NCBI RefSeq assembly: GCF_002563675.1
Contig: NZ_PDJC01000001.1
Location: 2,108,001-2,172,000 of the forward strand
Reading direction: 5' to 3'
Length of the DNA stretch: 64,000 bases
Source of the DNA: Propionicimonas paludicola
GTDB lineage: Bacteria; Actinomycetota; Actinomycetes; Propionibacteriales; Propionibacteriaceae
Shown: piece after piece, positions 49,208 to 61,523 of the stretch
How the letters are laid out: every line of letters begins with the position of its first letter
How positions within the stretch are numbered: the first letter of the stretch is position 1
The notes under the pieces: generated by a model
Told to the model about the DNA's origin: nothing
Database searches by the model: none
The model's input: the letters and a program-made list of their open reading frames with translations, nothing else
Program-made: the position numbers and the translations under genes

Positions 49208-50275
49208 TCACCGACGGCTCCCGCCGCCACACCGGCCGGGAGTGGCCCGCTGGTAGAGCTTGTCGATCGCATCGCGGTATCCGGCCTCGTCACTGAGCTG
49301 ATGGAAGCGCTCGGTGGCGGCGGACGCCGTACGCGCTCGCAGGCCTTCATCGCCGATCAGACAAACCAGGGCATCCACGAGCGCGTCGTCCTCACTCTCC
49401 AGGTAACCGGTGACCGCAGGAGCGACCAGATCCCGCATCCCGTCCACCGGGGTGCTGACAATGGGCAGGCCCAGGTACATGGCCTCGAGTGCCGCGATCG
49501 GCCGACCCTCGAAGCGCGAGCACATCAGCATCGCCTTGCTTTCCTTCATGATCTGATAGGGCGCATTGAGGAAGCCGAGATAGCTGGTTCGATCGTGCAC
49601 CCCCATCTCCTGGGACACCGCCTGCATCTGTGCGAGTAGTGGCCCATCCCCGACCACCCCGAACCTGGCCTCGTCGAGCCGCTGCAGTACGGCACAGGCG
49701 ACCCGCGCCACCCTCACCGGGTCCTTCTGGTCGGTGATCCTGCCAACGAACAACACGTCGAATCCGCCACCGGACTGCGCGGTTCCGGTGAGGGTATCGA
49801 TCCGCTTCGCGCTCACCACATTGGGCAGCACCGTCGTCCGTTCCGCGAGCACCCGACGAAGCGCATAGCCATCGAAGCACGCCTGATCGACCATCACGAC
49901 AGCGGCGGCCCGTCGTGCGGCCAAGGCATAGACCACCGCCTTTGGACCCAGAGTGCGCATGTCATCGCTGTTGACGTGCAGGTGGGAGATGAACGGCACG
50001 CCCGTCCCGGCGGCCGCGGCAAGCGCGGTTGCCCGGACGTCGTGGGCGTGGATCAGGTCGGGCCGAAACTGCCGAACGACCTGCCGCAGACCTCGGACGG
50101 TCAGACCGCTGATCGGGATGAAGTCGATACCGCGATCCTGGAGCGCTTCGCGCACCGGACCCTCCGGCGAGCAGTAGGCGAACTCGTGTTCCTCGGCCAG
50201 CATCAGGCAGATGTCCGCGGCAACGTTCTCCGCCCCGGACAAGGCCGGGCTGGAGAGCAGCTGTAGCACCCTCAT
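49208..50275 (-). CDS. Family 4 glycosyltransferase
   Basis: 355 residues from ATG 50275 with GAGGAGG upstream. Starts RVLQLLSSPALSGAENVA; the donor domain has LFVGRITDQKDPVR and SRFEGRPIAALEAMYLGLPIVST split over the EX7E motif (E-G-R-P-I-A-A-L-E). Cytoplasmic enzyme of repeat-unit assembly; sugar unknown. Confidence 0.9.
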   Translation of the reverse strand: MRVLQLLSSPALSGAENVAADICLMLAEEHEFAYCSPEGPVREALQDRGIDFIPISGLTVRGLRQVVRQFRPDLIHAHDVRATALAAAAGTGVPFISHLHVNSDDMRTLGPKAVVYALAARRAAAVVMVDQACFDGYALRRVLAERTTVLPNVVSAKRIDTLTGTAQSGGGFDVLFVGRITDQKDPVRVARVACAVLQRLDEARFGVVGDGPLLAQMQAVSQEMGVHDRTSYLGFLNAPYQIMKESKAMLMCSRFEGRPIAALEAMYLGLPIVSTPVDGMRDLVAPAVTGYLESEDDALVDALVCLIGDEGLRARTASAATERFHQLSDEAGYRDAIDKLYQRATPGRCGGGSRR

Positions 50276-50369
50276 CTGATCGTCCCTCCTCGCAGGCATG
50301 ACTCGCCCTCGCTGCGCCGACCGCCCGGGGCTGCGCCCATCGGGTAGCCCTGCGGGAGCCGAACGGATG

Positions 50370-51479
50370 TCACGAGGTCACCTTCCGGTACACCTGACGC
50401 ATCTCCTCGGCCACCGCGTCCAGGTCAAAGGAACCGGCCAACTCCAGGCTCCGGGCACCGAGGGCGGCCCGGTAGTCCGAGTCCTGCGCGAGTTCATCAA
50501 GGAGACGGGCCAGGCCGCGAGGCTCGGCCGGGTCAAAGAGCCAGCCGTTGCCGCCTTCGGCGACCAGGTCGCGGTGCCCGCGAATGTCCGAACAGAGCAC
50601 CGGAAGCCCGGCGAACATCGCCTCGATAACTGAGATCGGCAGCCCTTCCTGCCGTGACGACGCCACGTACACATCGGCGGCCGCGCAGACTCGCTCGATG
50701 TCCGAGCGGTAGCCGAGAAAGTGCACCCGCTGGTCGACGTGAAGCTCGGCAGCGAGTTCTCGCAGGCCGGCCTCCTCGGCCCCCACCCCGCATAGCAGCA
50801 AGTGGGCAGGCGCCTCGGCCAGGGCTAGGCCTCGCAAGGTGGCAGCGTGGTTCTTGCGGCGGCTCAACTCACCGACACTGGCTGCCACGAAGGTGTCGTC
50901 CGAAATCCCCAGCTCGCGGCGGACGTCGTCCCGGGCTTGCCGGCTCGGCCCGAACCGGCCGCGGTCGACGCCCACGCCGGGAATCAACACCGTCGCGCCA
51001 GCATGCAGTCGCTGCGCTGCCCGATAGTCCTCATCGTTGATCGTGATCAGCAGGTCTGTGGCGAACGACGCCAGCCACTCGACCGGATAGAAGGTCGCCC
51101 AGCTCCGCGCGCCGGAACCCCGGAAGAAGTGGAAGCCGTGCGCGGTGTAGACCACCTTCGGCACGCCGGCCAGCCGCGCCGCAAGACGTCCGACCACCCC
51201 ACCGACTGGGGAGTGGCAGTGCACCAGGTCCGGCTTCAGGCGGGTCATCAGGCGGACCAGTTCGATCAGGGCGATCAGATTCTTCGGTGACAGCGGACCG
51301 CGCTCGAACCGAATGTGGTGCGTAGTGATGTCGACCGCGTCGAGGCGTCGCCGATCCTCATTGGCCAGGTTGGCTGCTCCATGGATCTCGTAGCCAAGTT
51401 CCTTCAGAACCCGGATGTTGGCCGCCTCAAACAGAAAGAACTGGCGACCGACAGTGGACACAATCAGGGCACGCTTCAT
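50370..51479 (-). CDS. Family 4 glycosyltransferase, CapM/EpsD-like
   Basis: 369 residues. Acceptor domain with HCHSPVGGVVGRLAA and VVYTAHGFHFF, a signature of transferases that act right after the priming step. Donor domain EX7E is SRQEGLPISVIEAMFAG. It starts 2 bases after the priming transferase stop, and enzymes of this type usually add the second sugar. Confidence 0.92.
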   Translation of the reverse strand: MKRALIVSTVGRQFFLFEAANIRVLKELGYEIHGAANLANEDRRRLDAVDITTHHIRFERGPLSPKNLIALIELVRLMTRLKPDLVHCHSPVGGVVGRLAARLAGVPKVVYTAHGFHFFRGSGARSWATFYPVEWLASFATDLLITINDEDYRAAQRLHAGATVLIPGVGVDRGRFGPSRQARDDVRRELGISDDTFVAASVGELSRRKNHAATLRGLALAEAPAHLLLCGVGAEEAGLRELAAELHVDQRVHFLGYRSDIERVCAAADVYVASSRQEGLPISVIEAMFAGLPVLCSDIRGHRDLVAEGGNGWLFDPAEPRGLARLLDELAQDSDYRAALGARSLELAGSFDLDAVAEEMRQVYRKVTS

Positions 51480-51481
51480 CG

Positions 51482-52132
51482 TCAGTTCTCACTCTCCAGG
51501 ATCGCGTCGGCGGGCAGCGCTGCCGGCCTCAGCACGACCAGGACGGTCTGGATCAGGATCCGCCAGTCGCCCAACATCGAGCGGCTACGGACGTAGTCGG
51601 CGTAGGCCCGTGCCTTACGCGGCAGAAGCCAGGAGACATAGGCCTCGGCCGGGTCGTCGAACCGACTGAGGATCTCCTCCTCGTTTCTGAGCAGGGCGGT
51701 CGCCGGATCGGTGATGCCGGGACGCACCGAGACAATCGCCTCAGCCAACTCGCTGGGCCACTGGGCGGCCATCTCCGGCACCTCAGGACGCGGCCCGACC
51801 AGGCTCATCTCGCCCTTCAGCACATTCACCAGTTGAGGCAACTCGTCAATCTTGGTCGCCCGGAGGACGCGACCGACGCCGGTCACCCGTCGATCCCCCG
51901 CGACTGTGACCAGGGATCCGCCCACGCTCGCCCGCATGGTACGGAACTTGTGGAGCCGAAACTCGGTTCCGTATCGGCCGGTTCGTACTTGGCTGAAGAT
52001 GATCGGGCCCGGCGAACTCAGCGCAACCGCCACCGCGGCCACCAGCAAGATCGGCGACACTACGATCAACCCCACCGCAGAAAGCAGCACATCGCGAGCA
52101 CGAAAGACCGCCTCGCTGCCAGATCTGGTCAC
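51482..52132 (-). CDS. Priming sugar transferase (undecaprenyl-phosphate; WcaJ/PglC family)
   Basis: 216 residues, the short form without the extra N-terminal helices. One membrane hairpin (LLSAVGLIVVSPILLVAAVAVAL region), then HKFRTMR and the catalytic KIDELPQLVNVLKGEMSLVGPRPE block, written here by its ends KIDELPQ and LVGPRPE. It moves a sugar phosphate from a nucleotide sugar onto undecaprenyl phosphate, starting the repeat unit. It overlaps the upstream GNAT gene by 4 bases. Confidence 0.94.
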   Translation of the reverse strand: MTRSGSEAVFRARDVLLSAVGLIVVSPILLVAAVAVALSSPGPIIFSQVRTGRYGTEFRLHKFRTMRASVGGSLVTVAGDRRVTGVGRVLRATKIDELPQLVNVLKGEMSLVGPRPEVPEMAAQWPSELAEAIVSVRPGITDPATALLRNEEEILSRFDDPAEAYVSWLLPRKARAYADYVRSRSMLGDWRILIQTVLVVLRPAALPADAILESEN

Positions 52133-52764
52133 CGCATCGTCCTCGCAGCGTCCCGGTCGTTCACCTCGGACAGCCGCCGACAGTAGCGGTTCATCCGCCT
52201 GCCTCGGCTGGTCACGAAGTCGTCCAGGAGCTCCCAGCCACAGCGCAGGTAGAACTGGTTGACGGCCTCGTTATCGACGGCATCAGTAGTCAGGAAGGCG
52301 ACGCTGGCACCCCGGCTCTTCGCCTCCAGCTCCCACACTGCGAGCAGGCTGCGACCGATCCCCCCGCCACGCAGGTCGGGATCCACGCAGATCGAACTGA
52401 GCAGTCCGCCCTCGCTCTGGGCTGGTCCGTCTCCGCGGTAGCGCACCGCTGCGAAGAGGCGTCCGGCGATGCTCGGCCGTCGCAGCACCGCCAGTGCACT
52501 GACCATCATGAATGGGAACAGCCTGCGCAGGAGTAGGCGACGGAAGAAGCGCTCCGGTCGGGTGGTGCCCACTACGGCGCCGACGATCCGTCCGTGCTTG
52601 TTGCGGGCGACGACGACGGCCGCGGTGGGATCACCCACGAAGCCTCGGTAGAACTGCTCTAGGAAGCCCACTCCGAGACTGGACAGGAAGAAGGTGGGGA
52701 AGGCGCGCCGATGCAACTCGGCCAGCTCCCGAGTGTCGGCCTTCTTGATCCCGGTCTCGATCAC
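52129..52764 (-). CDS. GNAT acetyltransferase of the polysaccharide locus
   Basis: 211 residues. The acetyl-CoA loop is DLRGGGIGRSLL, and FYLRCGWELLD closes the fold. With the aminotransferase directly upstream, the likely reaction is N-acetylation of a nucleotide amino-sugar before the priming transferase, as WecD or PglD do. The substrate is inferred. It overlaps both neighbours by 4 bases. Confidence 0.85.
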   Translation of the reverse strand: MIETGIKKADTRELAELHRRAFPTFFLSSLGVGFLEQFYRGFVGDPTAAVVVARNKHGRIVGAVVGTTRPERFFRRLLLRRLFPFMMVSALAVLRRPSIAGRLFAAVRYRGDGPAQSEGGLLSSICVDPDLRGGGIGRSLLAVWELEAKSRGASVAFLTTDAVDNEAVNQFYLRCGWELLDDFVTSRGRRMNRYCRRLSEVNDRDAARTMR

Positions 52765-53948
52765 TGCGCTCCCGCGGTGCCGAGGAGCACCTCACGGGTC
52801 GCCGCGATCACGCGCTGGACGTCGTGATCGGTCATCGAGGAGAAGATCGGCAGGCTAACAACCCTGCCGAACGCCTCGGTCGCCACCGGGAAGTGTTCCG
52901 GAGCCAGGTGGTATGTGTCTCGCCAGTAGGGGTGCAGATGGAGCGGGATGAAGTGGACGCTCGTGCCCACTCCGCGCTCGACCAATGCTTCGATGAACCC
53001 ATCGCGCGATATCGGCGCGTCGCTGCCCAATCGGATCGAGTACACATGCCAGGCATGGCCGTTCGCCTCCACCGGGCCCTGCGGCAAGGTCAGCGGGAGC
53101 CCGGCCAGGCCGTAGTTGTAGCGGTCGGCGATGCTCTTGCGAGCCGATGCCATCTCCCGCGCCCGGCGCAACTGCACGCGTCCCATGGCAGCAGCGAGGT
53201 CGGTCAAGTTGTACTTAAACCCCGGCGCAACCACCTCGTAGTGCCAGCTGGGCTTGGTCGAGGTGTACCTGTCGAAGACGTCACGACTAATGCCGTGCAG
53301 CCGCATGGTCCGGGCTCGCTTGGCCAGCTCCGGTCGACTGGTGACCAGCATTCCGCCCTCGCCGGTCGTGATGGTCTTGGTCGAGTAGAAGGAGAAGATC
53401 ACAGCATCGCTGGCACTGTCTCCGACCAGGCGTGACTCGGAGTAGACCGGGAAGGCGTGCGCGGCATCTTCGACGACCCGCAGATCGTGAGCAGCAGCGA
53501 AGTCCGCCAGCGTCGTCCGCGAGACCGGAAGGCCGGAGAAGTGGACCGGGATGATGGCTCTAGTTCGGGGTGTGACTGCCCGAGCGGCCGCCTCGAAGTC
53601 GAGGTTGAGCGAGCCCGGCTCGACGTCGACCAGCACCGGCGTGGCGCCCAGATAGCGGACGACCTCGGCAGTCGCGGTGAACGTCCAGGTGGGTACCAGG
53701 ACCTCATCGCCGGGACCGATGCCAAGCGCCTCCAGGGCCAGATGGAGTCCAGCCGTGGCGGAGTTCACCGCGACGGCATGAAGATCCGGTCCGAGGAAGT
53801 CCGCGAACTCCCGCTCGAAGGCCGCCGCACTCGGCCCCGTGGTGATCCAGCCCGATCGCAGAGCTGTCGTGACGGCTTCGACCTCGTCCTCTGTGATGTC
53901 GGGCCGAGCAAAGGGAAGGAACTCCTCGGCGACTTCGGTCGGGGTCAT
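52761..53948 (-). CDS. DegT/DnrJ/EryC1 sugar aminotransferase
   Basis: 395 residues, PLP-dependent. The internal aldimine Lys is in FSFYSTKTITTGEGGM, with VEDAAHA before it and NSATAGLHLALEAL near the start. It converts a 4-keto nucleotide sugar to the 4-amino sugar. Gene order dehydratase, aminotransferase, acetyltransferase, priming transferase is that of the bacillosamine (PglFEDC) type pathway, which suggests a di-N-acetyl sugar at the reducing end. That is inferred. Confidence 0.93.
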   Translation of the reverse strand: MTPTEVAEEFLPFARPDITEDEVEAVTTALRSGWITTGPSAAAFEREFADFLGPDLHAVAVNSATAGLHLALEALGIGPGDEVLVPTWTFTATAEVVRYLGATPVLVDVEPGSLNLDFEAAARAVTPRTRAIIPVHFSGLPVSRTTLADFAAAHDLRVVEDAAHAFPVYSESRLVGDSASDAVIFSFYSTKTITTGEGGMLVTSRPELAKRARTMRLHGISRDVFDRYTSTKPSWHYEVVAPGFKYNLTDLAAAMGRVQLRRAREMASARKSIADRYNYGLAGLPLTLPQGPVEANGHAWHVYSIRLGSDAPISRDGFIEALVERGVGTSVHFIPLHLHPYWRDTYHLAPEHFPVATEAFGRVVSLPIFSSMTDHDVQRVIAATREVLLGTAGAQ

Positions 53949-55765
53949 CAGACTGCTTCCTTCAACTCGGAGGGCTGCCGTAGATCGACGATCACTCGCT
54001 CACTCTGCGTGCCCCAGGCCTCCTGGATGCGGCCCCAATCCAGGTCACCCGGATCAACAGGATCCACAGTGGTGTGGGAGATCTTCGGATGGATTCGGCG
54101 CTCGTCGAGCTCGCCGTCGGCGTAGAGCACCTCGTGCAGCTTCTCGCCGGGGCGCAGGCCGGTGAACACGATCTCCACGTCGCCGCGCCCGGACATCGCC
54201 ACCATCCTGCGTGCGACGTCGAGGATCCGCACCGGCTCACCCATGTCGAGGACCAGGACCTCCCCGGGCTTGCCGATCGCACCGGCCTGAATCACCAGCT
54301 GGCAAGCCTCCGGGATTGTCATGAAGAACCTGGTCACATCAGGATGAGTGACCGTCAGCGGCCCACCGGCCTCGATCATCTTGGTGAACAGCGGCAGCAT
54401 CGAGCCACGCGATCCGAGAACGTTCCCGAAACGCACCGACAAGTAGGTGAGCCCGGTGCGCTGTGCCGCATGGGCGGTGAGCCGCTCGGCCAGCCGCTTG
54501 GAGTGACCGAGGACGCTGGTGGGATCGGCTGCCTTGTCAGTGGAGATGTTCACGAATGTCTGTACCCCGGCGCGCCGGGCGGCCTCCAGCACATTGCTGG
54601 TGCCCAAGACATTGGTCTTCCACGCCTCCTTCGGGTACTGCTGCAGCATCGGAAGGTGCTTCAGCGCCGCCGCGTGGAAGACGACCTCGGGTCGACGTTC
54701 GTCGAAGATTCGGAACAGCGCCTCCTGATCGCGAATGTCGGCCAGCACCACTTCTTGCCCGGTCAGCAGCCCATTGCCGCAGATCGCCAGGTCGGTGGAC
54801 TGCAGGCCTGTCTCATCACGGTCCAAGAGGATCAGCTCCGACGGCCCGAACTTGTGAATCTGCACGCAGAGCTCACTGCCGATTGACCCGCCGGCGCCGG
54901 TGACCAACACCCGCCTCCCGGTGAGATAGCTGGCGATCGACATCAGGTCGGTGTCCACCGGACGCCGCCCGAGAATGTCCTCGATGGAGAGGTCCCGCAG
55001 ATCTCCGACCTGAGGGTCTCCGGCCAGCACCCGATTCAGCGGGGGAAGAACCTTGACCTTGATCCCCAACGGCGCAGCCAAGGCGTTGACCCTGGTCAGC
55101 AGCGTGGAATCGGCCTCGGCGATGGCCACCACCAAGACTCGAGAGCCGGTGCTCTCTGCGACCCGTCCGAGGTCCTGCAGGCCGCCGAGCACATCGACAT
55201 TCCGGACTCGCGCATGGCGTCGGCTCGGGTCGTCATCCAGCAACCCGACCGGCCGATAGGGCGAGCTGGCGTCGGTGATCATCCGGCTGACCAGGTAGGT
55301 GCCCATATCACCGGCACCGAAGATCAGGGCGGGCTCGGTCGCCCGGTCCCCCAGCCGCGCCTCGCGGCTCAGCCGCGCCAGATAGCGAACCGAGAACATG
55401 AGCAGCACGGCGATCGGGAGTGCGATCAGCATCGTGCTGCGCGGTGCGTTCAGCGACGGTGCCAGGAGCAGCAGGGCCACGAAGCTCGTCGCTCCGCTGA
55501 CCAGCGCCGCGTAGGAGAGCGCCCGTACCTCTTCGAAGCAGCCGTACTGGTACCGGCCCTGATAGAGCTTCAGAGCAAGGCCGGTTGCTCCCTGACAGAC
55601 AGCCGCGAGGGCGGCCAGCCACAGCGTTGCCGGAGTGTCGATCCCCGCGAAGGAGAACTCCAGCCTGAGTACCTGAGCGGCGGCAATGGCCACCACCCAG
55701 GCGGATGCGTCGAGAAGCCACTGGCCCAGGTACCGCAGCCCGGGCCGCGCAACAGTGGCCCTCAC
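53948..55765 (-). CDS. Membrane nucleotide-sugar 4,6-dehydratase (CapD/WbpM/PglF family)
   Basis: 605 residues from GTG 55765, preceded by GGAG; a longer reading from GTG 55840 is possible. Four N-terminal membrane helices, a first Rossmann-like domain (LIFGAGDMGTYLV), then the SDR catalytic domain (VLVTGAGGSIGSELC). The active-site segment is STDKAADPTSVLGHSKRLAE: Leu stands where short-chain dehydratases have Tyr and PglF/FlaA1 has Met. It makes the UDP-4-keto-6-deoxy sugar used by the aminotransferase, whose start overlaps its stop by 1 base. Confidence 0.92.
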   Translation of the reverse strand: MRATVARPGLRYLGQWLLDASAWVVAIAAAQVLRLEFSFAGIDTPATLWLAALAAVCQGATGLALKLYQGRYQYGCFEEVRALSYAALVSGATSFVALLLLAPSLNAPRSTMLIALPIAVLLMFSVRYLARLSREARLGDRATEPALIFGAGDMGTYLVSRMITDASSPYRPVGLLDDDPSRRHARVRNVDVLGGLQDLGRVAESTGSRVLVVAIAEADSTLLTRVNALAAPLGIKVKVLPPLNRVLAGDPQVGDLRDLSIEDILGRRPVDTDLMSIASYLTGRRVLVTGAGGSIGSELCVQIHKFGPSELILLDRDETGLQSTDLAICGNGLLTGQEVVLADIRDQEALFRIFDERRPEVVFHAAALKHLPMLQQYPKEAWKTNVLGTSNVLEAARRAGVQTFVNISTDKAADPTSVLGHSKRLAERLTAHAAQRTGLTYLSVRFGNVLGSRGSMLPLFTKMIEAGGPLTVTHPDVTRFFMTIPEACQLVIQAGAIGKPGEVLVLDMGEPVRILDVARRMVAMSGRGDVEIVFTGLRPGEKLHEVLYADGELDERRIHPKISHTTVDPVDPGDLDWGRIQEAWGTQSERVIVDLRQPSELKEAV

Positions 55766-56059
55766 TGCTGGCTCCACATGGCGGCAAGACGGCAGGGCCC
55801 AGCCCCCGACTCCGGCGTGTGAACGCTCAAGATCCCCCACTTCCGTTACGACTCACCCGTTCGTGGCGCGGGCGGATAACCTTCACCGAAGGTGAGTCCG
55901 GCTGCCGACAACACGTTGACTATTAGGCACATTGGAGAATTGAGGGACGGCCGGTGGACGCTTGGTGCACCTGCTCACCCCGTAGTTGGTACAGGCCTGG
56001 CCAGCCGATTGGCACGGCGAGACCCGAGTCTCGATACGGCGGTCGAGCGCTGTCTCGCG

Positions 56060-57520
56060 CTAGTCGCCGGAGAGAACTTGGACTGGCGAAATCGGCTCTG
56101 CTCGGTGCCCCTCGCGCTTCACCGAGTTGTCCATCGTCAGCACCGAGTCCTTGCTCGCCGTGACATACGAGCGGTAGTTGTAGCGGTAGCTGGCCCGCCC
56201 GTACCCGTTCACCTTCTCCGGCAGCTTGTTGATCACGGAGCCGAGCAGGTTCGCGTCCACTGCCCGCAACGAGTTCATTGCGGTCTCCAGCTGATGGCGG
56301 GAGACGCACGACGAGCCGACGATCATCAAAGCCCCGCCGACCAGACGCGCGATCACGGCCGCGTCGGTGACCGGCAGCAGTGGCGGCGAGTCGAGAATCA
56401 CCATGTCGTAGCGATCGACGGCCTCGGCCAGAATGTCTCGCATCGACTGAGAGCCAAGGAGCTCGGACGGGTTCGGCGGGATCTGGCCGCCGGGCAGGAC
56501 GTGTAGGTTGCCGTTCCCGACCGCTCGAACAGCCTCGGTGAGGCTGGCCTTACCGATGATCACCGCCGTCAGGCCCGGCGAGTCATCCAGGTCGAACAGG
56601 CGGTGGACGCTCGGTCGGCGCAGATCGGCGTCGATCACCAGCACCGACTCGCCGGCGTCTGCGAAGGCGGTAGCAAGGTTCAGCACGGTGGTTGTCTTGC
56701 CCTCACCGGGAACCGTTGAAGTCACCACCATGGAGCGACCATGGCCGGTGAACTTGAGGAACTGCAGGTTCGTCCGCAACCGCCGGTAGGCCTCGGCTCG
56801 AGCCGAATGTGGGTTGGTCTGGAAGACCACCGGGTGACGCTGCGTGTCCTGGTCCAGGTTGATCACGCTGATCACCCCGCTCTTGCCCACCACCGGGACG
56901 TCCTGCGGAACCACCACTCGAGTGTCCAACCGGTTTCGCAGCAGCGCCTGGCTGAACCCGATGAGGAGGCCTAACAGGAAGCCGAGCAGGATGTTCTGCA
57001 CAACCTTCGGCGACTTCCATGACTCCGGTACTCGAGCCCGCTCGACCACCGTCGCCTTGACCGCATCGGTGCTGTTCACTCCTGCGGGCGACAGTTCCGC
57101 CACAGCGATGGTGAGCTGATCGGCCACTGCGTTGGCAATGTTGGCGGCGGCGTTCGGGTCGGTGCTGGTCACCTCGAGGTCGATGATGGCCGTGTCGTTG
57201 GGTGCGCTGGCACTGACCAGGGTGGCCAGCTCCTGAGAGTCCATCGAGAGGCCCAGACTCTTGATCACCGGGTCTAGGACGATCGGCTTCTGGGCCAGCA
57301 TGGCGTAGGAGGCGACCTGGTTGCGGGCAAACAGCGAGCCTTGCTGCAGTTCGCCGGCCGAGCCGCCGCTCTCCACGGTCAAGAAGATGGCTGCCGTGGC
57401 GCCGTACACCGGCGTCACCAAATAGGACGCGCCCGCTCCCGCCCCAGCACCGAGGATCACGGCGATCACGATGCTCTTCCAGTAGTGGCGGAACAGGTCC
57501 AGGTAGGCCTTCAGCTCCAC
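56060..57520 (-). CDS. Polysaccharide co-polymerase / bacterial tyrosine kinase (Wzc-like)
   Basis: 486 residues from GTG 57520; a TTG at 57529 is also possible. Wzz-type chain-length domain with two membrane helices (near residues 20-38 and 175-195) joined to a BY-kinase: Walker A VPGEGKTTT, Walker A' VLVIDADLRRP and Walker B MVILDSPPLLPVTDA. Near the C-terminus is a tyrosine cluster, YGRASYRYNYRSY, the likely autophosphorylation site. It sets polymer length and controls export. The single-chain Wzz-kinase form is normal in actinobacteria. Confidence 0.93.
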   Translation of the reverse strand: MELKAYLDLFRHYWKSIVIAVILGAGAGAGASYLVTPVYGATAAIFLTVESGGSAGELQQGSLFARNQVASYAMLAQKPIVLDPVIKSLGLSMDSQELATLVSASAPNDTAIIDLEVTSTDPNAAANIANAVADQLTIAVAELSPAGVNSTDAVKATVVERARVPESWKSPKVVQNILLGFLLGLLIGFSQALLRNRLDTRVVVPQDVPVVGKSGVISVINLDQDTQRHPVVFQTNPHSARAEAYRRLRTNLQFLKFTGHGRSMVVTSTVPGEGKTTTVLNLATAFADAGESVLVIDADLRRPSVHRLFDLDDSPGLTAVIIGKASLTEAVRAVGNGNLHVLPGGQIPPNPSELLGSQSMRDILAEAVDRYDMVILDSPPLLPVTDAAVIARLVGGALMIVGSSCVSRHQLETAMNSLRAVDANLLGSVINKLPEKVNGYGRASYRYNYRSYVTASKDSVLTMDNSVKREGHRAEPISPVQVLSGD

Positions 57521-57773
57521 TGCAGCCAACTCTCAGGTCGTCGGGGGTACGGGCGCGCCAGCGCACATGCACCGCCTGAGGCCGACGATCCGTCGTCCCA
57601 TGCATCGCTAACACGCCAGCGTCGACGGTCAGTCTGATTCACCGCGCAGTAAGCGCCGGTGGTCGTGACGGAAGTCCCGCCGGCTTTGGTGCACCCGGTG
57701 GTCACGCCAATGGTCACCAGGTATCGGGGAAACTGGTCAGGTTCAGATGAACCGGGCCCGACCCACCGGACAC

Positions 57774-58808
57774 TCAGGGTGAGTCGGCCTTGGCGACCTC
57801 GTCCAGGTACTCGTCGACCGAGTCCGAGTCCAGCGCCTGGATGAGTCGGTCGAGCTTCTTGCGATCCACCAGATCGATCGACTGTCCGGTCGACGAACGC
57901 CCGTAGCCCGCGATCGGAACCTGCATGGTCACCACGCTCCTGCCGTCATCGAGGTGCATGCTGCCGGCCAGGTCGATGATCGCCTCATTGGTCAGTGAGG
58001 CATCCACCGTGACCAGCCCGCTCAGTTGGTCGAGAACTGCCAGCAACTCCGTCGGGTGCGACAGCGCCTCCTTCGAGAAGAGCTTCGCGGCCAGCGCCTT
58101 GAGCACCCGGCGCTGGCGCTCGGCTCGCCCGAGATCACCGCCTGACACGCCATGACGCTGGCGCACAAAGGTGAGCAGGGCGTCCCCGCTGAGCCTGATC
58201 GAACCACGGGCGAAGTGGTAGGGACCCACGCTCGAGGCCTCGGAGTTCCAGACGGTGATCTCACCGAGCTTCTCGCTGACCGCGACCAGTCCGTCAAAGT
58301 CCAGCCAGGCGGCGTGCTCGATGTGGGTGTCCAGCAACTTCTCGACGGTCCGTACTGCCAGCGGCATGCCGCCGAAGGCGAAGGCGGCGTTGATCTTGTT
58401 CTTGCCGTGCCCCGGAATCGGCACATAGAGGTCTCGGGGCAGCGACATCAGGTACACCGAACGTCGATCGGCGGAGATGTGCCCCAGGATCAGAACGTCG
58501 CTACGGGAGATCCCGCCGTCCGAGGCATCGGCTCCCGCAACCAGGAAGTTCATCGGGCTGTCCGGGGTGGGCGGCAGCACCGGGATCTCCGGCGTCGGCA
58601 ACATGTCCGGGTCCCGGGCAATCCCGGACAGCATGCTGGATGCCTTCCAGACCACCGCCCCCGCGCCGAGGCCGACGACCAGCACTGCAGACAGCAGGAC
58701 GATCAGCAGGATCCGGCGGCGTCGCCGCCGAACCGGGATCGGCTCGACGCGCGCCGGACCGGCTTCGAGATCGCCGAGCAAGACATCCTCCCGAGCAACT
58801 CGCCGCAT
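57774..58808 (-). CDS. LytR-CpsA-Psr (LCP) family protein
   Basis: 344 residues. Short basic cytoplasmic tail (RRRRRR), one membrane helix (LLIVLLSAVLVVGLGAGAV), then an LCP domain outside the membrane: RSDVLILGHI, LMSLPRDLYVPIPGHG, KINAAFAFGG and FVRQRHG carry the conserved Asp and Arg residues that bind the pyrophosphate. LCP enzymes transfer the finished polymer from its lipid carrier to the cell wall. It ends the polysaccharide locus, giving it a wall-anchoring step. Confidence 0.93.
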   Translation of the reverse strand: MRRVAREDVLLGDLEAGPARVEPIPVRRRRRRILLIVLLSAVLVVGLGAGAVVWKASSMLSGIARDPDMLPTPEIPVLPPTPDSPMNFLVAGADASDGGISRSDVLILGHISADRRSVYLMSLPRDLYVPIPGHGKNKINAAFAFGGMPLAVRTVEKLLDTHIEHAAWLDFDGLVAVSEKLGEITVWNSEASSVGPYHFARGSIRLSGDALLTFVRQRHGVSGGDLGRAERQRRVLKALAAKLFSKEALSHPTELLAVLDQLSGLVTVDASLTNEAIIDLAGSMHLDDGRSVVTMQVPIAGYGRSSTGQSIDLVDRKKLDRLIQALDSDSVDEYLDEVAKADSP

Positions 58809-58925: not shown

Positions 58926-61523
58926 TCAGCCGAACCAGACCTCATTGCCCGCCGCGTCGACGGCATGGACTCGGAAGCTCTCAGCGGCAAGGTCGGCGCT
59001 CAAAGTGGCCGTCGCGCCCTGCCTGCGCCAGGTGATCTCCAGCTGCTCGGAACCGGTCTGACCCACCTCGCAGTCAGCATCGAAGCCGAAGGCCGGGAAG
59101 CTGTTGCGGAACTTCAGCAGGTCAAGCTGCGCAGTGACGACTGGACGGTTCAGTCCCTCGGCGATCTGCGCGGCACTCAAGTTCGTCCGGTTGATCTCCT
59201 TGTGCCCGCCCTCGCCGGCGCGCTCGACCGCGGCATGGTCGTTCGGCCCGGCGAACAGGTCCAGGTACCAGACCTGGGGCTTGCCGGGCATGAAGAGCTG
59301 GATCGCCCGGGCCAGCAACAACCGAGCATCGCTCTCCCCCAGCGCGCTGTAGTAGGTGGCGTTCACCTGGTAATAGATGTTCTTGGCGCCATGCAGGTCC
59401 TTCACGTACCCACCGCGGCCCTTCACGGTCTCGATCAGCGACTCGATCCGCGCGGACGGCAGTAGCCCACCCAGATCCAGCAGCGGGATGCCGTCATGGC
59501 AGCCGAGCATGTTCACCGTATGGATCCGCTTGCTCAACAGCTCACCGATCCAGCGTTTCAGGGTGCTGGCATCGCGACTCTCGAAGGCGTCGATGAGCAG
59601 GCCGGGCAGGAAGAAGTCGTAGGTCAGGAAGCCCTTGCCGGCCAGCAGCTCGTGGATGCCCTCGGCGTAGCTGGCATGGATCTCCGGAAGCAGGATCAGT
59701 CCTCGGGCATCGGCCAGCTGCTTGACCTTGGCCAGCACCTCCCAGGTGCCGGGCTCGTTCAGGAAGTTGCGCTGACCAGGGGCCTTGGGGGCGTAGGCGA
59801 AGGCGTCCAGCCGGACGATCTTGGCACCGTAGCCGGCCAGCTTGTCCAAGGTGTCGGCGTAGAACTGCCAGACGAGCGGCGAGTTGATGTTCAGGTCCAT
59901 CTGGCCCAGGTAGCGTCGCCGAGCCTCAACGGCGTCCACCACAGCATCCCGGACGTCCTCGAAGCCGCTGAAGTCCGCATCCCCGGGACGCCCACCTGCG
60001 CTCAACGTGGTCGCCAACCGGGCGGCCAGCAGCTCGGCCCGTCCGTACTGCAGGCCGGCGGCGGCCATCAGCTCCTGCGGATCGGGCTGTGAGTAACGGA
60101 CCTCCTGGTAGAAGGTGTTCCAGTAGGGCACCTCGCGGCCGTCGGGGAACCGGACCATCAGGATCGGCAGCCCCGGTTTGCGGAAGAACATGTCCTTGAT
60201 CAGGTAGTCGTCGGGCTGCAGGTAGCCACCCTCGGTCAGGTCACCGTGCCCGGCCCAGAACTTGTTCCAGTCGATGAAGAAGTCCACATAGGGCGAACGG
60301 TCGCCACGGGCCAGGACGTCCTGGAACTGCGGGGACAACACCGAGGCGTGGTTGAGGATGAAATCGAGCTTCAGGTCGATGCCGGCTTCAGCGAGCGCCG
60401 GCAGATCGTCCGGGCCGACCAGGGTCTGGCTGAGCTCGTAATCGATCACCGAGAAGCCGCGGTCCAGATCGGTGTTGAACACGCTCGGCAGCAGGTAGGC
60501 CGACTCGAAGGCGCCGGCCACAGCCGGATCGCGAACCACGTCCACCAGTCCGCTCAGCTGACCGGCCAGGCTGTCGGGGTAGGCGTTCAGCATCGGGCCG
60601 GCACCGGGCAGGTCAAGGCCCATCGAGGCCTGGTACTCGGCGAAATCGAGCAGCTCACCGGAGCGGGAGACGATGATCTTGGCCCGATGTGCTGCGGCGG
60701 CCAGCTTGGCCTGCTCCAGCTCCAGGACCATGGTGGTGAACGGGGAGTCGACGGCACCGTCCCGGCTTCGGGCCCGGCGGTGGGCCAGGGTCTCGGCCGG
60801 AGTGCTGTTCAGCAGGATCGGGACGTCCACGCCGACCAGATGATCGGAGTTGCCGTGGGTCCACTCCACCACCATCACCCGAACCGCGGACAGATCTACC
60901 CGGTCGTACCAGAGCTGGCCATCGGAGCGTCCCATCCGCTTCAGCATCAGAGTGTCCGCGCCGGCGTGGAAGTCGGCCAGAATCGCGTTCAGCTCGGCGA
61001 AGTCGATCTCGGCCGGCGTACCGAGGTAGTCGGCCAGTGCGGCCCGTCCTGCGCGCAGGTAGCCGGCCAGCCAGGGATGCTCGCCGAGCTGGGACGGGTC
61101 GGCGTCCGCCCCATCGGCCTGCAACTGGGCGAGCAGGTCGCGGACGTGGCCGTCGTAGCCACCGGCCTCGACCAGGCCACGCAGGCCGGCCGACCGGAAC
61201 ACCCGCAGCCGCTCGGCATCGTTGGCTTCCGGGAATCGGCGCGGATAGTTGTCCCCGGACAGCAGGTAGGAGCCGATGCCGTGCTGAGCCAGGCCATAGG
61301 CCAGCAGGGAGCCGGTCTCGGACTTGCCCACGCCCGAGCCGCCGCACACCGAGACGACCGGACGGTGGCCGGCAGCCAGTTCGGGGCTGAGCAGTTCGAT
61401 CAACCGGGGGAAGATGTGCTCGGCTTTGGCGAGATGGTCGTGGCTGATCTGCACCTTGTCCCCCGGCATGTCGCCGACGGGAATGGCAGACAGGTCGCTG
61501 ACGACCGGGAAACTGACTGTCAT
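58926..61523 (-). CDS. Fusion of a P-loop kinase and a GH13 (subfamily 18-type) phosphorylase
   Basis: 865 residues; GAGGAG precedes the ATG. Residues ~50-300 form a P-loop kinase of the uridine-kinase/phosphoribulokinase/APS-kinase class: Walker A GGSGVGKS (61-68), SGDNYPRRFPEANDAERLR and VEWTHGNSDHL. Residues ~310-865 are a GH13 barrel of the sucrose-phosphorylase type: nucleophile Asp573 in IVRLDAFAYA, acid/base Glu614 in LLPEIHAS, and Asp677 in LGCHDGIP. An extended insert at ~480-540 recalls glucosylglycerate phosphorylase. A phosphorylase would release glucose-1-phosphate and an acceptor that the kinase could then phosphorylate, but both substrates are unknown. Confidence 0.82.
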   Translation of the reverse strand: MTVSFPVVSDLSAIPVGDMPGDKVQISHDHLAKAEHIFPRLIELLSPELAAGHRPVVSVCGGSGVGKSETGSLLAYGLAQHGIGSYLLSGDNYPRRFPEANDAERLRVFRSAGLRGLVEAGGYDGHVRDLLAQLQADGADADPSQLGEHPWLAGYLRAGRAALADYLGTPAEIDFAELNAILADFHAGADTLMLKRMGRSDGQLWYDRVDLSAVRVMVVEWTHGNSDHLVGVDVPILLNSTPAETLAHRRARSRDGAVDSPFTTMVLELEQAKLAAAAHRAKIIVSRSGELLDFAEYQASMGLDLPGAGPMLNAYPDSLAGQLSGLVDVVRDPAVAGAFESAYLLPSVFNTDLDRGFSVIDYELSQTLVGPDDLPALAEAGIDLKLDFILNHASVLSPQFQDVLARGDRSPYVDFFIDWNKFWAGHGDLTEGGYLQPDDYLIKDMFFRKPGLPILMVRFPDGREVPYWNTFYQEVRYSQPDPQELMAAAGLQYGRAELLAARLATTLSAGGRPGDADFSGFEDVRDAVVDAVEARRRYLGQMDLNINSPLVWQFYADTLDKLAGYGAKIVRLDAFAYAPKAPGQRNFLNEPGTWEVLAKVKQLADARGLILLPEIHASYAEGIHELLAGKGFLTYDFFLPGLLIDAFESRDASTLKRWIGELLSKRIHTVNMLGCHDGIPLLDLGGLLPSARIESLIETVKGRGGYVKDLHGAKNIYYQVNATYYSALGESDARLLLARAIQLFMPGKPQVWYLDLFAGPNDHAAVERAGEGGHKEINRTNLSAAQIAEGLNRPVVTAQLDLLKFRNSFPAFGFDADCEVGQTGSEQLEITWRRQGATATLSADLAAESFRVHAVDAAGNEVWFG

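Follow-up and report, generated by a model that had tools for sequence, protein, structure and literature searches.

What does a protein do that joins a P-loop kinase to a relative of sucrose phosphorylase in a single chain? The question is raised by a gene of Propionicimonas paludicola (Propionibacteriaceae), which lies on the minus strand at 58926..61523 of the 64,000-nucleotide stretch that we analyzed ("the window"; contig NZ_PDJC01000001.1, positions 2,108,001 to 2,172,000). It is a single open reading frame (ORF) of 865 codons with an ATG start. The protein is quite likely bifunctional, acting both as an ATP-dependent sucrose 6F-kinase and as a sucrose 6F-phosphate phosphorylase (SPP). 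The N-terminal kinase would use ATP to phosphorylate cytosolic sucrose at C6 of the fructosyl unit, giving sucrose 6F-phosphate, and the C-terminal half, from glycoside hydrolase family 13 (GH13), would split this with inorganic phosphate into glucose-1-phosphate and fructose-6-phosphate. Overall, sucrose, ATP, and phosphate would yield glucose-1-phosphate, fructose-6-phosphate, and ADP, with no phosphotransferase system (PTS) and no free fructose, and the intermediate would be kept local to the fused chain. Both halves are homologous to characterized enzymes and keep conserved residues, their genes are nearly inseparable across genomes, and fusions of the two recur. From these observations, we infer the activities, the position of the phosphate, and the channelling.

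A first-pass annotation, made from the sequence alone, had described one chain with a P-loop kinase (Walker A at residues 61–68) and a complete GH13 phosphorylase barrel (catalytic Asp573, Glu614, and Asp677), and all of these features are indeed present. The gene is real: matches across the family and purifying selection rule out a chance ORF. The fused protein has one match in the host genome. In a sample of 97 genomes from the family, 40 had any match; 20 of these had matches at 62–100% identity, and the remainder had weaker GH13 matches. Among those 20 genomes, 18 have one open frame and two (G064 and G090) have the gene split across contigs. Relative to a 90% identical homolog (L021), both halves are under purifying selection, with dN of 0.075 and dS of 0.61 for the kinase half and dN of 0.054 and dS of 0.48 for the SPP half. 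AlphaFold modelled the kinase half with a mean pLDDT (predicted local distance difference test) of 93.8 and the full protein with a mean pLDDT of 87.9 and a pTM (predicted template-modelling score) of 0.80.

The C-terminal half (residues 307–865; 58926..60605, minus strand, like all the features below) is a GH13_18 barrel that appears to be of the strict SPP type. Its top match in the PDB is IcSPP from Ilumatobacter coccineus (6s9u; 584 bits, versus 256 bits for the runner-up), and 288 of 513 aligned residues are identical to IcSPP. We mapped nine IcSPP residues onto the window protein by way of a 523-amino-acid protein (L155, from genome G415) that matches 6s9u over its full length without a printed difference (1205 bits). 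All nine (R152, R221, D223, E264, D327, K364, Y377, Q378, and K434) are retained, as R448, R571, D573, E614, D677, K708, Y718, Q719, and K775, respectively. These include the catalytic nucleophile Asp573 (59805..59807), the general acid/base Glu614 (59682..59684), and the transition-state stabilizer Asp677 (59493..59495), which align with IcSPP's Asp223, Glu264, and Asp327, as well as the four residues that bind fructose 6-phosphate in IcSPP (Arg152, Lys364, Tyr377, and Lys434). According to excerpts of the IcSPP paper (PMC6720575; the other papers cited below are likewise represented by excerpts), fructose 6-phosphate was the sole acceptor used among more than 30 tried, changing Arg152, Lys364, or Lys434 loosened the specificity, and fructose was used only by mutants.

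Loop A of the window protein is KNIYYQ (residues 714–719; 59367..59384), which fits the KXXYYQ mark of strict SPPs (PMC7178133), and the same mark is found in 86 of 95 kinase-linked SPPs. In a 92-row tree, the kinase-linked SPPs and IcSPP split from seven other GH13_18 proteins with a support of 100, and in a 94-row tree the window protein falls together with L021 and the fusions from actinobacteria. The phylogeny that the first-pass annotation proposed thus puts the GH13 half in the clade of strict SPPs, as judged by sequence, and it is predicted to phosphorolyze sucrose 6F-phosphate only. A domain search was also proposed there. The strongest curated model on the full protein was the NCBIfam sucrose phosphorylase model TIGR03852, yet its 298 bits are below the cut-off of 334.4; a Pfam scan of the fused protein found nothing at E = 0.001, and no Pfam or NCBIfam model was above its cut-off on the kinase half.

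The kinase half (residues 1–306; 60606..61523) belongs to the family of the sucrose kinase domain of AgaSK, as indicated by homology and by its Walker A motif GGSGVGKS (61320..61343). It shares 38% identity (E = 3e-50) with the kinase domain of L157, a protein of 938 amino acids (from its own start) whose α-galactosidase part is nearly identical to crystallized AgaSK (2yfn; 1638 bits over 720 residues). A relative, L156, matches 2yfn with 1220 bits. As 2yfn covers the galactosidase part only, the likeness of L157 to AgaSK rests on that part. L157 and L156 are the proteins of loci L125 and L124 (L125 read from its own start), where the kinases are the C-terminal parts of 942- and 932-amino-acid frames, respectively, and the N-terminal part is a melibiase of family GH36. 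The isolated kinase domain of AgaSK from Ruminococcus gnavus phosphorylates sucrose with a Km of 1.0 mM (PMC7688924), and we predict ATP-dependent phosphorylation of sucrose for the kinase half of the fusion as well.

Searches with the kinase half as a single sequence gave weak matches over the P-loop stretch only. A 28-row profile of the kinases matched entries for SRP54 and APS kinase (best E = 2.5e-6), in the P-loop region alone; PF00485 was above its cut-off in both AgaSK-type proteins that were scanned. The telling match, to the kinase domain of L157, came instead from the search of genomes. For the predicted structure, among the 50 Foldseek matches listed (E = 3e-7 to 2e-4) were pantothenate kinases, a putative fructose transport system kinase, uridine-cytidine kinases, phosphoribulokinases, and D-glycerate 3-kinase.

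We aligned 96 kinases, including the short AgaSK-type and Ilumatobacter-type forms. Residues G61, S63, G64, G66, K67, D91, P98, N101, D102, R105, G168, E172, E220, T222, D233, T245, R249, R252, and R254 are identical in all 96. By analogy with uridine kinase, we take Asp91 of SGDNYP (61251..61253) to be a candidate for the catalytic base and R249–R254 to be a candidate lid. A helical insert at residues ~111–156 (61056..61193) is missing from the AgaSK-type and Ilumatobacter-type kinases in this alignment, and the fused relative L017 lacks it too; the kinase can therefore probably do its basic work without it.

The genes for the two halves nearly always travel together. Fused forms occur in Propionibacteriaceae, Nitriliruptoraceae, and a few Lachnospiraceae; as separate neighbors, kinase and SPP genes occur in other Clostridia, Bacteroidia, two alphaproteobacterial metagenome-assembled genomes (MAGs), and Ilumatobacter. 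In a scan of contigs with the fused protein as the query, we considered the best 80 of at least 591 related stretches. Kinase and SPP were in one frame at 24 of these loci, all actinobacterial (L038 is at a contig edge), and the kinase gene was just upstream of the SPP gene at 56 loci, from Clostridia, Erysipelotrichaceae, Bacteroidales, and the two alphaproteobacterial MAGs. This ranking favors linked pairs, and searching genomes with each half separately is a less biased test.

Among 200 genomes of Lachnospiraceae (the family of the Oliverpabstia genome), the kinase profile matched 36, with 18 clear hits (E ≤ 1e-50) and 18 weak hits to the P-loop only (E = 3e-6 to 8e-4). SPP was found at E ≤ 1e-150 in exactly the 18 genomes with the clear kinase. 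Another 10 genomes, all without a clear kinase, contain other GH13_18 proteins only (E = 6e-71 to 1e-79). The odds of the exact overlap are 5e-26 if the draws are independent, which related genomes are not. In these 18 genomes, which include those of L124 and L125, the genes are fused in four (L109, L116, L118, and L121) and adjacent on the same strand in 14.

Among 296 genomes of Actinomycetota, eight have an SPP-type match at E ≤ 1e-60, of which five are at E ≤ 1e-137, and all five contain KXXYYQ. The kinase is fused in two of the five (G000 and G474) and is encoded just upstream in the other three (G549, G479, and G415). A genome search with the kinase found 4/296 at E ≤ 1e-12; it missed the kinases of G479 and G415, which were found by reading the loci. 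G415 carries IcSPP itself (L155:5501-7719), whose gene overlaps that of an upstream 217-amino-acid P-loop kinase by one base. In G524, one contig ends in a kinase-like fragment with a stop, near genes that resemble those of ATP-binding cassette (ABC) transporters (G524:C23:29-250; L166). Another contig (G524:C202; L165) has an SPP-like frame and, one ORF further, a protein that looks GH32-like, as judged by a motif.

In 395 genomes of Bacteroidia (the class of the Mangrovibacterium genome), SPP at E ≤ 1e-60 is found in G101, G660, and G912, and the kinase at E ≤ 1e-8 in G101, G660, and G891. In G660, the gene order is LacI, a TonB receptor, a major facilitator superfamily (MFS) protein that matches a sucrose/proton symporter model (below the cut-off), kinase, and SPP. 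Across 95 loci, distances between kinases correlate with distances between SPPs (r = 0.68), but this is uncontrolled for the relatedness of the species, so we do not use it as evidence.

In all 56 separate pairs from the contig scan, the kinase and SPP are in the same frame, which prompted us to consider stop-codon readthrough. The junction stops are mixed (26 TAA, 16 TAG, and 14 TGA), and most of the printed junctions have an SPP start codon after the stop. Other frames occur in Lachnospiraceae loci that were found by the kinase alone (L111 to L115). We therefore rejected readthrough and regard the shared frame as a selection effect of a scan that kept the best matches to a fused query.

To count fusions, we used the 94-row GH13_18 tree (quick method, LG+G4), which has 25 fused proteins (including the window's), 60 separate SPPs, two beside a GH36-kinase, and the seven other GH13_18 proteins. 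There were 113 candidate rows, of which 21 near-duplicates or repeats were dropped; the truncated L038, L086, L091, and L100, as well as L186 (the same gene as L109), were excluded beforehand. The state changes between fused and separate four times, all forced by starred branches: for the actinobacterial group, for L158, for L159 with L160, and for L109, which is at a contig edge. The 92-row tree, without the window protein and L109, has three changes. These counts cannot separate gain from loss. In the rooted 92-row tree, the Ilumatobacter-type pairs, which are separate genes, branch first, so repeated fusion seems to be the simpler reading.

The Lachnospiraceae fusions (L159 in G301, L158 in G302, L160 in G233, and L109 in G273) lie apart from the actinobacterial fusion in the tree. 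Beside the kinase-SPP fusion of L159 are a lone α-galactosidase that looks GH36-like and ABC transporter genes. L156 and L157 show the reverse, with the kinase fused to GH36 and SPP standing alone. It looks as if the same activities occur in both arrangements, with only the partner of the kinase, GH36 or SPP, being exchanged. On a 252 kb plasmid of Agathobacter rectalis (L204; NZ_CP143948.1), the annotation lists an ABC transporter, an α-galactosidase (947 codons, the size of AgaSK), and a sucrose phosphorylase, and leaves the kinase part unnamed.

Several observations weigh against our interpretation. We know of no assay of the fused protein. The link between the genes is very strong but not absolute, because of two Bacteroidia: G912 (L212:5844-8524) has SPP without the P-loop kinase, and in G891 (L213:6198-9405) the kinase gene is flanked by genes for a GH100 alkaline/neutral invertase-like protein and a sucrose-symporter-like MFS protein, with no SPP found in that genome by the search at E ≤ 1e-60. 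No linked kinase was seen around the loci of the lower-scoring GH13_18 matches in Actinomycetota genomes G496 and G524, and none is shown for a third such match, in G377, whose locus was not read. Among the kinase-linked SPPs, 9/95 deviate from KXXYYQ or could not be parsed. Also, no sugar gene recurs beside the actinobacterial fusions: in 95 of 115 ORFs scanned beside 23 loci (most of the 20 omitted were either very long or small and doubtful), the top count was 4/95, for MFS_1. The host genome also has two matches to GH32, so the case for sucrose use in the actinobacteria rests on homology. Beside 53 of the separate pairs, 110 of 117 ORFs were scanned and included LacI (11), SBP_bac_1 (5), MFS_1 (5), and melibiase (2), which is no more than suggestive. 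We also considered sucrose-phosphate phosphatase (PF05116), which has five matches in the host, four of them above the cut-off of 20.3 (maximum 29.7 bits), and set it aside as uninformative, as the same search was positive in 11 of 14 control genomes. A further objection concerns the phosphate: AgaSK is said to phosphorylate C6 of glucose, forming sucrose 6G-phosphate (PMC7688924). If this is right, SPP should not use the product, and the kinase could not simply hand its product on to the other half.

Under that assignment, the kinase would make sucrose 6G-phosphate, SPP would act on imported sucrose 6F-phosphate from a pool of its own, in line with Tauzin et al., who draw the pathways apart (PMC7688924; PMC6521584), and the fusion would only co-regulate them. 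We think this is unlikely. The same 18 of 200 Lachnospiraceae genomes hold both genes, always adjacent or fused, and fusion arose repeatedly. Furthermore, mass spectrometry was used to identify the AgaSK product as S6P (PMC7688924), and in our judgement, this method alone gives the mass and not the position of the phosphate. The linkage of the kinase with SPP, which needs the phosphate at C6 of fructose, favors the view that sucrose 6F-phosphate comes from the kinase. G912 gives a hint in the same direction: its gene order is like that of G660, except that a PfkB sugar kinase (closest PDB entry: fructokinase 3hj6) apparently displaced the unrelated P-loop kinase, and a fructokinase-like enzyme beside the same type of SPP would fit phosphorylation of the fructosyl unit.

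The same PfkB gene could instead be taken to favor phosphorolysis first, with an ordinary sucrose phosphorylase followed by a fructokinase. The net reaction would be identical, and the invertase-like neighbor of the kinase in G891 would also fit. This is the order in which the first-pass annotation placed the two activities; it is probably the reverse, because a strict SPP takes only fructose 6-phosphate and the kinase domain of AgaSK phosphorylates sucrose (PMC7688924). The window protein's loop A is not the N(L/V)D(I/L/V)YQ of sucrose phosphorylases (PMC7178133), its TIGR03852 score is below the cut-off, and IcSPP was inactive on the other compounds tried (PMC6720575). Overall, phosphorolysis first seems very unlikely. 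We can give even less credence to the substrates that the first-pass annotation suggested for its coupled kinase and phosphorylase, although the fusion itself is real and coupling likely. It had proposed a glucosylglycerate phosphorylase with a glycerate kinase, citing the long insert at ~480–540. D-glycerate 3-kinase does appear in the fold search, but at rank 23 (E = 1.5e-5), behind pantothenate and uridine kinases, and its profile E value is just 0.13. Glucosylglycerate phosphorylases are marked by a Glu within loop A and by the motif (T/S)ETN at strand 5 (PMC7178133), and the window protein instead has Gln719 and PEIHA (around Glu614), with the +1 subsite residues of a strict SPP. The insert (domain B, residues ~478–531; 59931..60092) is variable within the family. 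The stretch 477–528, modelled mostly as helices, has no counterpart in IcSPP, and the insert is present in most relatives that we compared but missing from L018, L074, L092, L096, and L098 as well as IcSPP, which rules it out as a mark of specificity. L018, a fused relative from the same genus, lacks it and keeps the SPP loop KNVYYQ.

We return to a kinase that acts on sucrose before SPP. More broadly, it is probable that P-loop sucrose 6F-kinases are a widespread family, for the most part unannotated, that is linked to strict SPP in Actinomycetota, Bacillota, Bacteroidota, and alphaproteobacterial MAGs; that the two enzymes make up a PTS-independent pathway of phosphorylation and then phosphorolysis, with about four fusions; and that the product of AgaSK really carries its phosphate at C6 of fructose. 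This would call into question a published product assignment in the raffinose pathway of a gut symbiont. It suggests an origin for sucrose 6F-phosphate, a poorly understood sugar, and what a family of kinases may do that the Pfam and NCBIfam models leave unclaimed in the window protein and that occurs beside SPP even at the IcSPP locus. The fused protein makes the source of sucrose 6F-phosphate testable within a single protein.

Next to the fused gene, at 49208-58808 of the window, is an exopolysaccharide-like cluster with glycosyltransferases, a sugar transferase, and a tyrosine kinase-like protein, as judged from ORF translations; the Pfam scan covered only the LytR-CpsA-Psr protein of this cluster. 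Among the four neighbors scanned (the LytR-CpsA-Psr protein, a thioredoxin, a DtxR-like repressor, and an acVLRF1 protein), there was no sugar-catabolic gene.

The activities that we propose are known ones; what seems new is their fusion and their wider distribution. In the open literature (excerpts, leaving aside subscription journals and preprints), we found no report of a kinase-SPP fusion and no mention, including in the IcSPP paper, of the kinase beside IcSPP. IcSPP (PDB 6S9U, GH13_18) shares the catalytic triad, KXXYYQ, and the mapped phosphate-binding residues with the window protein, but it is unfused, with a 217-amino-acid kinase gene overlapping its start, and it lacks the ~54-residue domain B insert. 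The promiscuous TtSPP from Thermoanaerobacterium catalyzes the reaction that we propose for the window's SPP; unlike it, TtSPP has GFDVHQ as loop A, belongs to another clade, and is in an operon with genes for a PTS and a phosphofructokinase (PMC7178133). Pantothenate kinase, uridine-cytidine kinase, and phosphoribulokinase share the fold of the kinase half, according to Foldseek. The closest parallel to the fused pair is RgAgaSK and the adjoining RgSPP of R. gnavus, which have the same kinase family and the same type of SPP next door. There, the kinase is fused to a GH36 α-galactosidase instead of SPP and its published product is sucrose 6G-phosphate, and in the near-identical AgaSK relative L157, the kinase is without the helical insert of the window protein.

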